The notes under the pieces are model-generated. The model was not told where the DNA came from. It did not search any database and saw only the letters and a list, made by a program, of their open reading frames with translations. A stretch of DNA of 51,344 nt. Origin: Candidatus Saccharimonadota bacterium (GTDB lineage Bacteria > Patescibacteriota > Saccharimonadia > Saccharimonadales > Saccharimonadaceae). The stretch spans positions 1 to 51,344 of the forward strand of contig JAFWMY010000019.1 in assembly GCA_017545485.1 (NCBI GenBank), written 5' to 3'. Made by a program: the position numbers and the translations under genes. Positions 25,881 through 51,344 of this stretch are shown here, piece by piece. Positions within the stretch are counted from its first letter, which is position 1. The number at the start of each line of letters is the position of its first letter.

Positions 25881-27116
25881 ATGATTTATCTTGATCATGC
25901 GGCAGCGACGCCGGTATCTGAGAAAGTATTAGAGGCAATGAAGCCGTATTTTTCTGATGAGTTTTTTAACCCGTCTGCAGCGTACTTGCCGGCGAAAAAA
26001 GTGGCGCATGATTATGAAAAGGCTAAGGGCGTAATTGCTCATGCAATTGGGGCTAAGGCGTCTGATCTTGTTATCTCCGCGGGAGCGACTGAAGCGAATA
26101 ATCTTGCATTTACAGCTATACTAGACGGACAAATATCTCACTCGGCGCCGCGTCCGGCCGTCCCGTCGGCACGGGCGGCCGGCGCTAAATCTCGCGCTGC
26201 CGCGCTCCGAAATGCGCCGAGTCAAGATATTTGTCCTGTCTTGTATCTCGCAACTGAGCATGATTCGGTGAGATGCGTAGCGGAGCAATTTGGAGGAACA
26301 GCGATTAGCGTCCTTCCAAATGGTCTGATTGATTTAGAGGACTTAAAAGCAAAAATTACTGATGATACGGAATTGATTTCTGTGAGTTTGGCTAACAATG
26401 AACTTGGAACAATTCAGCCACTAGCTGAGATTGCAGCAATCGTTCGTGAAGTTAAATTAGATAGAATGAAGCGGGGAATTAAAAAACAATTATTGCTTCA
26501 TTCAGATGCTTCGCAAGCCTTGAACTTACTAGACATAAATGTAGCGAGGCTTGGTGTTGATCTTCTTACTCTTAATGCGGCTAAAGTTTACGGTCCAAAA
26601 GGAGTAGGGGCCTTATATGTATCGCATGATGCCAAATTAAAACCTTTAACGGTTGGTGGTGGTCAGGAAAACGGTCTGCGTTCTGGGACTGAAAATGTGC
26701 CTGGAGTAATTGGTTTTGCAAAAGCGGTAGAATTAGCTAAAGAACACTTAAATGGAAATCGCAAAAAATATGCGACTTGGCGAAAGATACTGATTAAAGA
26801 ATTACAGGGGTGTGAGTTAATAAATAAAAAGCACTCTCTTGACAATTTTATTGTAATATGCTATAATAAGATAGATGCGGAACGATTAGTGTTCCTTCTT
26901 GAAGAAAAAGGAGTTTATGTAGCGACTGGTGCTGCTTGTGCGGCCAGCAAGGGCGTGCGTTCACATGCTTTAAAGGCAATTGGGCTATCCGATGAGCAAA
27001 TTGCGGGCTCATTAAGATTGACACTTGGGGAAACTAATACCGAAGAACAGATCCATGAGGCCGCCCAAATTATCAATACTGTTTTAGAGCAAGAGCAAAA
27101 CAGGTTAATAAGCTAG
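25881..27116 (+). CDS. Cysteine desulfurase (NifS/IscS-like) with in-frame palindromic insertion
   Basis: A PLP-dependent enzyme that releases sulfur from cysteine for tRNA thiolation or Fe-S clusters. It begins MIYLDHAAATPVS, has AGATEANNLAF, the PLP lysine Lys235 in NAAKVYGPKG, and active-site Cys353 in GAACAASKGVRSH. The His usually preceding the PLP Lys is Ala234, a mild oddity. The 411-residue length exceeds the usual 380-390 because residues about 83-119 form an Ala/Arg/Pro/Ser-rich insertion encoded by a GC-rich inverted repeat (26127-26236). The downstream mnmA is a natural sulfur acceptor. Its end overlaps the convergent surface-protein gene by 4 bp. Confidence 0.93.
   Translation: MIYLDHAAATPVSEKVLEAMKPYFSDEFFNPSAAYLPAKKVAHDYEKAKGVIAHAIGAKASDLVISAGATEANNLAFTAILDGQISHSAPRPAVPSARAAGAKSRAAALRNAPSQDICPVLYLATEHDSVRCVAEQFGGTAISVLPNGLIDLEDLKAKITDDTELISVSLANNELGTIQPLAEIAAIVREVKLDRMKRGIKKQLLLHSDASQALNLLDINVARLGVDLLTLNAAKVYGPKGVGALYVSHDAKLKPLTVGGGQENGLRSGTENVPGVIGFAKAVELAKEHLNGNRKKYATWRKILIKELQGCELINKKHSLDNFIVICYNKIDAERLVFLLEEKGVYVATGAACAASKGVRSHALKAIGLSDEQIAGSLRLTLGETNTEEQIHEAAQIINTVLEQEQNRLIS
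26127..26236. repeat. GC-rich inverted-repeat insertion in nifS-like gene
   Basis: Left arm 26127-26147 begins GGACAAATATCT; right arm 26215-26236 ends AGATATTTGTCC. The arms pair over 12 and 8 bp around a small mismatch. The core (26148-26214) is about two-thirds G+C in an AT-rich gene and contains CCCGTCGGCACGGG (26162-26175), a near match of the 14-mer in the mnmA and obgE insertions. The reading frame stays open throughout. Confidence 0.8.
26839..26867 (+). promoter_or_regulatory. Consensus promoter inside nifS-like gene
   Basis: TTGACA (26839-26844), 17 bp, TATAAT (26862-26867) with TGC extension. Transcription would run through the last 80 codons and antisense into the convergent surface-protein gene. 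Confidence 0.5.
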
Positions 27117-31424: not shown

Positions 31425-32660
31425 ATGAAAACAGTTTACGTCGGGATGAGTGGCGGAGTAGATTCTTCCGTGGCAGCCTTGCTTTTAAAAGAGCAGGGTT
31501 ATCATGTTGTTGGCGTATACATGAAAAACTGGTCGCAAGATTTGCCGGGTATGAAATGTCCTTGGGCGGAAGATTTGGCTGATGCAAAACGTGTAGCGGT
31601 AAAACTGGGAATTGATTTTGAAGTGTGGGATTTTGAAAAAGAATACCGTGAAAAAGTAGTTGAATATATGCTTGATGAATTTCGGGCAGGGAATACGCCA
31701 AATCCTGATGTAATGTGTAATCAAGAGATAAAATTTAAATTGTTTTATGAGAAAGCGATGGAAGCTGGGGCGGATTTTATTGCTACGGGACACTATGCGA
31801 GAGTGCAGCATTTCGGAGATGTTTCTTTGGGGACCGGCGTCGCTCCGGCCCGTCGTTACGGGCGGAGCGCGCCTTCATCCTCGGTCGTAACCTCCGGACA
31901 TCCCCCAAAAAACATCTCCGAATCTGCCCAGCTTTTGCGGGCGGTGGATGAAAATAAGGACCAGACTTATTTTCTTTATCGGATTTCTGATGAGGCGTTA
32001 GCTCATACTTTGTTTCCGGTCGGTGAGATGCTAAAACCAGATGTGAAAAAATTAGCTGAAAAAAATGGGCTTCATAATGCATACAAAAAAGAGTCTATGG
32101 GGGTATGCTTTGTCGGTGAAGTTGGAATGAAAGATTTTTTGAAGGAGTATATTGATGTTGCCCCTGGCGAAATTCGTGAGATGGAAAGCGACCGCGTACT
32201 AGGTTATCATGAAGGCGCTGTGTTTTACACGATTGGGCAAAGACACGGTTTATATCTTGATGGTGAAAAAGGCGTGATAAATGACGGCTTGCCTTACTAC
32301 GTTGTTAAAAAAGATGTTGCAAAAAACATTGTTTATGTATCAAAAAATCTAAACAATGCAGAAATCTGGACGAAGAAATTAGATTTAAAAGATATATTTC
32401 TACGTTCTGTTCCGCCTATTAATGGTAAAATGCAAGATTCGGCGTTGGCTAAGCGAGATAGTAAAGCGACTGGGAACGACAAAAAATGGAGTGAGAAAAT
32501 ATCCGTTTCGGTGCGCTTGCGTCACAGAGCACCACTCGTTCCAGCAACTTTTGATGGCAAAACATTACATTTTGAACATGAAATTAAAAGGCCAGCAAGT
32601 GGACAATCGGCCGTGTTATACGATGGTGAGATTTGTCTAGGTGGAGGCATTATAGCATAA
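31425..32660 (+). CDS. mnmA: tRNA-specific 2-thiouridylase MnmA with in-frame palindromic insertion
   Basis: MnmA thiolates U34 of Lys, Glu and Gln tRNAs using sulfur relayed from a cysteine desulfurase. The PP-loop is SGGVDSS (9-15), the catalytic cysteines are Cys98 in DVMCNQEIKF and Cys228 in GVCFVGEVGMKDF, and ATGHYARV and DENKDQTYFLYRI are conserved. The protein has 411 residues, against about 360 in the family. Residues about 130-166, between ATGHYARVQH and LLRAVDENKDQ, derive from a GC-rich inverted repeat. A second, non-palindromic extra loop (about 329-350, Lys/Ser/Asp-rich) precedes the C-terminal barrel. The desulfurase gene 4.3 kb upstream is a likely partner. Confidence 0.95.
   Translation: MKTVYVGMSGGVDSSVAALLLKEQGYHVVGVYMKNWSQDLPGMKCPWAEDLADAKRVAVKLGIDFEVWDFEKEYREKVVEYMLDEFRAGNTPNPDVMCNQEIKFKLFYEKAMEAGADFIATGHYARVQHFGDVSLGTGVAPARRYGRSAPSSSVVTSGHPPKNISESAQLLRAVDENKDQTYFLYRISDEALAHTLFPVGEMLKPDVKKLAEKNGLHNAYKKESMGVCFVGEVGMKDFLKEYIDVAPGEIREMESDRVLGYHEGAVFYTIGQRHGLYLDGEKGVINDGLPYYVVKKDVAKNIVYVSKNLNNAEIWTKKLDLKDIFLRSVPPINGKMQDSALAKRDSKATGNDKKWSEKISVSVRLRHRAPLVPATFDGKTLHFEHEIKRPASGQSAVLYDGEICLGGGIIA
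31812..31922. repeat. GC-rich inverted-repeat insertion in mnmA
   Basis: The 21-nt arms (31812-31832, starting TTCGGAGATGTTT; and 31902-31922, ending AACATCTCCGAA) pair at 20 of 21 positions. The core 31833-31901 is strongly GC-rich and holds CCCGTCGTTACGGG (31849-31862), flanked by CGCTCCG and CGGAGCG, which can form an inner hairpin. The reading frame is uninterrupted. Confidence 0.85.
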
Positions 32661-42444: not shown

Positions 42445-45031
<2,587 letters not shown>

Positions 45032-49979: not shown

Positions 49980-51344
49980 GTGGTATAATAGGTACAGGCC
50001 CGGGTGGTGGAATTGGTAGACACGTATGCCTTAGGAGCATATGCCATTCGGTGTGCAGGTTCAAATCCTGTCCCGGGCACCATCATGGAACAAAATTCCG
50101 GATCTTCGCGCGAAAGCGCGTTTTTTATTGCCGAGCGGAGCTCGGAATAATGGCGAAAATGGGCTCGCGGTGCGGGGGTCGCGAGCCCATTTTCGCCTGC
50201 CCCTTGCCCGACTTCATAGCCTGCCAAGTGGATTTTCTTACCGCTTAAAATGAGGTTCGAGCCGAACATTTCTAGCGCGAGTTGCTTTTTCTGGTTTGGA
50301 TTGCCATTTTCAACGATTTTACGGATAGAGCCGAGCGTTTCTAGCCATTTTCGCATTAGTTCGAGCCAAGCATTTTGCCCACTTTCTAATGATGCGAGTT
50401 TTTCTTTTAATGATTGCTTTTCTTTCACAATTTGCTCTTTTTTAGCAAGAAATGTTGTGCGATCAATATCTTGTTCTAAGTAACTATCTACAAGTCGATT
50501 CTGCTTAATGCCAAGATTAGTTATTTGGTCAGATAGATTTTTGCGCAACATTTCTTGCGAGTTATTGCTGTCGTTAGTGTCTTTTTCTAATCTAGTGTTC
50601 AGCCAATCCAACATATCATTGGTTGGCGCGAAACTGAGTAGGAATTCGTCTAATTCTCGGTTTAAGATTTCGGCACGCACCGCTGGCTCGGTACAATTCA
50701 CAAATCTATGTTTCTTGGTACATCTATAATAGACATATTCTGGGCTATTTCCGTTTTTGAAGTGTTTAATGTGTTTCTCGGCAGTAATCATCATCCCACA
50801 AGGACAATGGAACAAACCGCAGTAAGCGAATTGTTTCTTGACCTTCGGCACAGCGTGCCCGCGCTCATCCAAAATATGCTGAACTTTATCAAAGAGAGAT
50901 TTCTCTATTATAGGTGGATGCGAGCCTTCATGAATCTCCCCACCATAATAGAACAACCCAACATAGAAGGGGTTTGATAGAATCCACCGCACTTTGCTTG
51001 GATGGAAAGGTTTTTTATTACGGGTTATCGCTCCTTTTTCTTTTAAAAGGAAAGAAATCTCTCGGAGTGTATAGCGCCCACTGGAATAAGTTTTGTATAT
51101 TTGTCTAATAACGCCCGCAAACTGTGGATCTGGCACTATTGTTTTGGTGCGGTAATCATTTAAGTAACCGATAGGTGCCGGTCCGGGAAACTCGCCACGC
51201 CGAACTTTCTCTCGTAAGCCACGCTTTGTATTCTCGGACAAACTATCTACATAATACTTGCTTTGCCCAAAAGCCATATTCAACATAAACTTACCTTGTG
51301 GTGTAGGCTCAAACCAAAAGGTTGGAAAAACTAATCTTGTAATG
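49964..51344 (-). CDS. Large serine recombinase, C-terminal part (5' end outside window)
   Basis: The frame is open to the right edge, so the N-terminal resolvase domain with its catalytic Ser is outside; visible are the end of that domain (PTPQGKFMLNMAFGQSKYYV), the recombinase domain (RGLREKVRRGEFPGPAPIGYL...NPFYVGLFYYGG), a zinc ribbon (CGLFHCPCGMM...RCTKKHRFVNC), and a long coiled coil. From about 50200 leftward, the sequence derives from a GC-rich hairpin (50131-50197) and then from the antisense of tRNA-Leu (VPGTGFEPA). The frame finally stops at 49964. Real translation past the tRNA is doubtful. It would catalyse integration and excision of an element lying to the right. Confidence 0.85.
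   Translation of the reverse strand, partial: ITRLVFPTFWFEPTPQGKFMLNMAFGQSKYYVDSLSENTKRGLREKVRRGEFPGPAPIGYLNDYRTKTIVPDPQFAGVIRQIYKTYSSGRYTLREISFLLKEKGAITRNKKPFHPSKVRWILSNPFYVGLFYYGGEIHEGSHPPIIEKSLFDKVQHILDERGHAVPKVKKQFAYCGLFHCPCGMMITAEKHIKHFKNGNSPEYVYYRCTKKHRFVNCTEPAVRAEILNRELDEFLLSFAPTNDMLDWLNTRLEKDTNDSNNSQEMLRKNLSDQITNLGIKQNRLVDSYLEQDIDRTTFLAKKEQIVKEKQSLKEKLASLESGQNAWLELMRKWLETLGSIRKIVENGNPNQKKQLALEMFGSNLILSGKKIHLAGYEVGQGAGENGLATPAPRAHFRHYSELRSAIKNALSREDPEFCSMMVPGTGFEPAHRMAYAPKAYVSTNSTTRACTYYTTKIDP
49981..49989 (+). promoter_or_regulatory. tRNA-Leu promoter
   Basis: TGGTATAAT ends 8 nt before the first base of the mature tRNA, so the primary transcript could begin at or within 1-2 nt of the mature 5' end. 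Confidence 0.6.
49998..50082 (+). tRNA. tRNA-Leu (anticodon UAG)
   Basis: Acceptor stem GCCCGGG (49998-50004) pairs with CCCGGGC (50072-50078), with encoded ACCA at 50079-50082. The anticodon arm has a 5-bp stem TATGC/GCATA around loop CTTAGGA, giving anticodon TAG at 50032-50034. The D-loop contains GGTAGACA, the T-arm GGTTCAAATCC, and the long variable arm marks a class II tRNA. The 3' end serves as integration site for the neighbouring recombinase element. Confidence 0.97.
50053..50082. other. Inferred attachment site (tRNA-Leu 3' end)
   Basis: The serine recombinase frame on the minus strand abuts and reads into the tRNA 3' end, the standard layout of elements integrated at tRNA genes. 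The exact crossover and the second att copy lie outside what can be seen, so the boundaries are approximate. Confidence 0.4.
50107..50126 (+). terminator. tRNA-Leu terminator
   Basis: CGCGC, GAAA tetraloop, GCGCG, followed by six T (50121-50126), 25 nt after the tRNA 3' end. Confidence 0.85.
50152..50197. repeat. Perfect 18-bp inverted repeat with GC-rich loop
   Basis: GGCGAAAATGGGCTCGCG (50152-50169) is exactly complementary to 50180-50197, with loop GTGCGGGGGT. A small neighbour hairpin, CCGAG-CGGAG-CTCGG (50131-50145), lies between it and the tRNA terminator. No T-run follows on either strand, so it is not an intrinsic terminator. It lies inside the C-terminal coding extension of the recombinase. 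Confidence 0.85.

Follow-up and report, generated by a model that had tools for sequence, protein, structure and literature searches.

The mnmA gene of a Saccharibacteria genome carries, in frame, a 111-nt palindromic insert (31812-31922 of the window, as we call the whole 51,344-nt stretch of DNA analysed), which is almost certainly one member of a family of dispersed palindromic elements inserted in frame. The copies share a core, whereas the arms are specific to each site, and in obgE one arm is native to the host gene. We therefore favour, with reasonable though not high confidence, the reading in which a non-autonomous mobile hairpin core acquires its arms by snap-back copying of the left flank, and the arms are maintained by the same copying.

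The window features referred to below are the following.

25881-27116, plus strand: gene of a NifS/IscS-like cysteine desulfurase, host of the third element
26127-26236, plus strand: element of the same architecture, related but with another core (CCCGTCGGCACGGG), in the cysteine desulfurase gene
31425-32660, plus strand: mnmA (tRNA 2-thiouridine(34) synthase), host gene, with the reading frame open across the insert
31812-31922, plus strand: family I palindromic element of mnmA, its core oriented as the gene
31812-31832, plus strand: left arm of the mnmA element, its outermost TTCGGA being native MnmA loop
31836-31873, plus strand: hairpin 1 of the mnmA element, apical CCCGT-CGTT-ACGGG, containing the 14-mer at 31849-31862
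31878-31898, plus strand: hairpin 2 of the mnmA element, apical GGT-CGTA-ACC
31902-31922, plus strand: right arm of the mnmA element, complementary to the left arm and read as an inverted copy of the flank
43523-44965, minus strand: obgE (GTPase ObgE/CgtA), host of the second element
44553-44669, plus strand: second family I element, inside obgE, with the same Y-shaped fold

The mnmA insert ranks first among the inverted repeats of the window. Its 22-nt arms (31812-31833 and 31901-31922) are 91% complementary without gaps; over the first 21 positions 20 match, as the first-pass annotation had reported, and the inner hairpin CGCTCCG...CGGAGCG that it described inside the arms is present, nested with the 14-mer CCCGTCGTTACGGG, which occurs in the window here and at 44592-44605. 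The predicted RNA fold (-68.9 kcal/mol, z = -8.5) was equalled by none of 200 shuffles, and the DNA fold has z = -8.0. The apical hairpins are closed together by a long outer stem, and this Y-fold is common to all three copies in the window. Another inverted repeat, a perfect one of 18 nt with a 10-nt loop, lies at 50152-50197, shortly past a tRNA match (49998-50079).

The MnmA frame encodes 411 aa and includes, as claimed earlier, the peptide RRYGRSAPSSS. In the PDB structures of MnmA the loop at the insert site is short, with only about 3 residues in solved MnmA vs about 36 in this protein. Among 30 orthologues, 17 have extra residues at this loop, belonging to several families, and 13 have a short loop, all with open frames; since the orthologues were ranked by similarity to a filled query, the filled ones are over-represented. 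No direct repeat indicative of a target-site duplication flanks the mnmA copy, other copies having been judged by eye only. Compared with solved MnmA, the protein has one more insertion, at 32430-32515 (residues ~335-362); near this site several congeners bear palindromic elements (L097, L112, L206), whereas the segment here is of low complexity, lacks clear arms and may be a decayed copy. The three element-bearing genes of the window all encode conserved enzymes, and mnmA and the cysteine desulfurase are both tied to tRNA thiolation, which could be chance.

Exact copies of CCCGTCGTTACGGG number five in the 885-kb genome, those in mnmA and obgE and three beyond the window, and blastn places the sequence at about eight positions, a lower bound as regards diverged relatives. 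Of 147 congeners, 103 contain the 14-mer, at most 21 times per genome, while the reversed-pattern control gave no matches across the same 147 genomes. Its 19-mer extension matched at least 118 stretches in a species-level genome collection; the 80 matches listed all come from Candidatus Saccharibacteria, mostly of the mammalian gut, and in a sample of 380 Patescibacteria genomes only one of 313 genera had it. Judging by these matches, the tests so far confine the family to a single genus of gut Saccharibacteria. Thus the suspicion of a repeated family was borne out, and an assembly error at the hairpin, which the annotation had named as a possible objection, is excluded, as is chance, by the presence of the core in more than 100 independent genomes and in many genes, with no match to the reversed pattern. 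The genus-wide distribution had not been noted earlier, nor had the fact that the arms are site-specific and unshared between copies. In the open-access literature, subscription journals and preprints being outside the search, we found no report of palindromic elements in Saccharibacteria or Patescibacteria; hairpin elements of about 110 bases in frame in essential genes apparently constitute a family unreported so far.

The architecture is constant over 152 elements, with a GC-rich two-hairpin core of about 70 nt and outer arms of about 20 bp. The outer stem consists of about 8-9 outer pairs, a frequent 1-nt bulge in the right arm, and about 11 inner pairs leading to the core, in many elements through a 2x2 mismatch. 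The bulge lies 32-33 nt before the core hairpin (at 31-34 in 74 of 152), and pairing drops past 40-42 nt. Compensatory changes between sites are seen in hairpin 1; the consensus fold of a MAFFT alignment contains this hairpin only, because the arms do not align between sites. A spanning ORF is present around 105 of 147 distinct elements, compared with 52% of random windows. Of these 105 coding copies, 81 have the core antisense to the gene and 24 have it sense, and none of the 81 uses the antisense frame that would read the TAA of the core.

These observations bear on two readings in which the element would act as a structure. It could be a functional RNA or DNA structure (a regulator, terminator or processing site) kept by selection in each gene, as the very stable fold on both strands, the fixed place of the bulge and the antisense bias would suggest. 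However, the host genes and positions vary among species, empty orthologues are frequent (13 of 30 for mnmA), both orientations occur, and the Rfam covariance models gave no match to the element, so that we consider this explanation improbable. Even less credible is translational bypass or RNA removal, in which the stem would allow the insert to be passed over by the ribosome or a nuclease and so remain untranslated: the long closed stem with site-specific arms is what a hop or excision structure would look like, but a bypassed insert would need neither the open frames, which are kept, nor the avoidance of the TAA-containing antisense frame. Under the snap-back reading, the surviving copies would be those that are in frame, stop-free and situated in tolerant loops, where they would be translated as extra, presumably neutral, loops of essential proteins.

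For 199 non-orthologous pairs with core identity of at least 95% the mean arm identity is 0.41 (random expectation, 0.26), compared with 0.85 for orthologous pairs. Two copies in one genome (G155, L169 and L187) have cores almost alike and different arms. Such a pattern might be produced by an ordinary palindromic MITE-like element, similar to the Rickettsia palindromic elements, which moves together with its arms, the arms diverging fast under selection for pairing and the core being conserved by function or gene conversion. The left arms do have a weak consensus (rich in A at -32 to -29 and in T at -24 to -20), and in one lineage, with the inner arm CGAGAATACCC, similar arms are found at unrelated sites, although the outermost pairs (2-8) still depend on the site. 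Two subfamilies with the same core hairpin (L023/L064/L099/L122 and L053/L094/L106) have arms conserved at unrelated sites and are classical palindromic repeats. Given this lineage and the two subfamilies, arms sometimes travel. On the other hand, the arms are not simply faster-ticking, as orthologues with core identity of 0.87-0.97 share 0.65-0.85 of arm positions, and non-orthologous copies with core identity of 0.98 share 0.41.

Arm changes in 16 filled orthologous pairs are mainly double (55 double, 12 one-sided); three of these pairs (L093/L137, L065/L029, L259/L256) may compare independent insertions, and when all three are dropped 31 double and 9 one-sided changes remain. Compensatory changes in orthologues would also be expected of a MITE-like element under pairing selection, but G-U and A-C mismatches in the mRNA sense are equally frequent (39:39), without the G-U excess expected from selection on an mRNA stem. 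The first-pass annotation had taken the high arm identity as a sign of recent insertion. This does not hold: orthologous copies with flanks 81-94% identical keep the same or nearly the same arms, and the arms change in pairs. Thus arm identity is maintained or constrained and provides no clock; paired change fits template switching, hence high arm identity does not date the insertion.

The origin of one arm is seen most clearly in obgE. The empty site L273 reads ...AAC CAA GAA AGA ATC TTT TTA GCT GAT, and the filled site L265 reads ...AAA ATC AGC ACA AAA AGT TCT TTC GAA (core) CGA GAA AGA ATC TTT TTG GCT GAT; the respective proteins are Y K V N Q E R I F L A D L and Y K I S T K S S F E G ... 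A P R E R I F L A D L. In L265 the arm on the C-terminal side, GAAAGAATCTTTTTGGCTGAT, is identical to the empty site at 20 of 21 positions, and the arm on the N-terminal side, ATCAGCACAAAAAGTTCTTTC, repeats it in inverted form, with one base extra and one missing. The core of L265 is a related one, not the 14-mer CCCGTCGTTACGGG itself; in the 14-mer family, comparison of L250 and L253 (KDLIADL) with the empty L260 (KKALIADL) shows the same side to be native. An arm that is native in an empty homologue argues against the MITE-like element, which we regard as possible but rather doubtful.

The same asymmetry is seen over 99 coding elements, where the share of the arm covered by protein homology is 27% on the left and 0% on the right. 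Homology reaches deeper into the left arm in 60 elements and into the right arm in 30 (Wilcoxon p = 2.8e-4, elements sharing one gene being not fully independent), with the same direction in both gene orientations; at the DNA level the ratio is 47 vs 21. For the mnmA copy of the window only the outermost TTCGGA, corresponding to the MnmA loop V-Q-H-F-G (compare VEHSG and VKPFSG at empty sites), is callable as native. In most elements, mnmA included, only a part of the arm is callable, because the empty sites are mostly 70-84% identical and the loops are variable. Genomes G150 and G151, as well as others considered as close presence/absence pairs, proved too diverged or fragmented. Separately, G151 has intergenic hairpin insertions after obgE (L207:3680-3790) and after ychF (L197:2950-3060) at places empty in G150, the flanks being 92-97% identical and the cores unrelated to the 14-mer family.

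In the mechanism that we propose, the spreading unit would be the GC-rich core of about 70 nt with its two-hairpin fold. On arrival at a new site, a stretch of about 20 nt from one flank (the left one in the core orientation) would be copied, inverted, to the other side by snap-back, or template-switch, DNA synthesis, with priming at the core hairpin. The element would thereby be closed by a long stem particular to that site, and the arms may later be kept complementary in the same way. Template switching is described as able to create and maintain hairpins (PMC8794818). A simple copy would, however, be exact, yet the bulges recur at fixed positions. One may also think of a new kind of transposition, in which dedicated machinery would insert the two-hairpin core and build an inverted flank copy of fixed length (about 21 nt), bulges included; we hold this to be a minor possibility.

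As for enzymes, neither of the two families sought, Y1_Tnp and RVT_1, provided a dedicated enzyme or a partner transposase. An origin by REP/RAYT was rejected, as Y1_Tnp is absent from this genome (G000) and occurs in only 2 of 80 congeners. Dependence on a reverse transcriptase was rejected as well: RVT_1, found in 50 of 80 congeners, gave no hit in this genome, and copies occur in 20 genomes that lack it, the mean copy number being 4.2 with a reverse transcriptase and 2.3 without (p = 0.06). Many of the reverse transcriptases in these 50 congeners are of about 380-400 aa and possibly belong to diversity-generating retroelements.

The family would add protein-coding mobile palindromes to the Candidate Phyla Radiation, from which none is described in the literature searched. 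It would separate the mobile part, the core, from arms made at the site, and thus offer a countable natural record of hairpin-primed template switching in bacteria; the filled genes may serve as many natural experiments on the acceptance of 30-40 foreign residues by conserved enzymes (MnmA, ObgE, cysteine desulfurase).

By our analysis, the family resembles the Rickettsia palindromic elements, which are palindromes of about 100-150 nt in a reduced genome, many of them in frame in unrelated conserved genes (PMC10969869); the Saccharibacteria palindromes likewise sit in frame in coding genes. In contrast to them, the arms are not conserved between the Saccharibacteria copies (0.41 at near-identical cores) and one arm belongs to the host gene, the insertions use several orientations and frames, and the phylum is different. 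The Rickettsia elements are reported to lose repeat identity over time (PMC6649704), whereas the Saccharibacteria elements keep it. No sequence relation to the Rickettsia elements came up among the core matches listed, all of which are from Saccharibacteria; as the arms proved not to be conserved, we do not assign the family to them. Near-perfect coding inverted repeats are known from the mitochondria of Nematomorpha, with identity kept by proposed repeat conversion or template switching (PMC6649704), but these have no shared mobile core, while the Saccharibacteria elements have a conserved two-hairpin core between the arms. Similarly to REP/BIME sequences with RAYT, the elements are short multicopy palindromes with a CGTC motif in the core; unlike them, they are mostly intragenic, and Y1_Tnp is rare among the congeners. 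They are small, non-autonomous, palindromic and dispersed like MITEs, but have no terminal inverted repeats common to the copies, and no target duplication is seen. Unlike in known small bacterial mobile elements, the arms appear to be built by backward copying of the neighbouring gene sequence.
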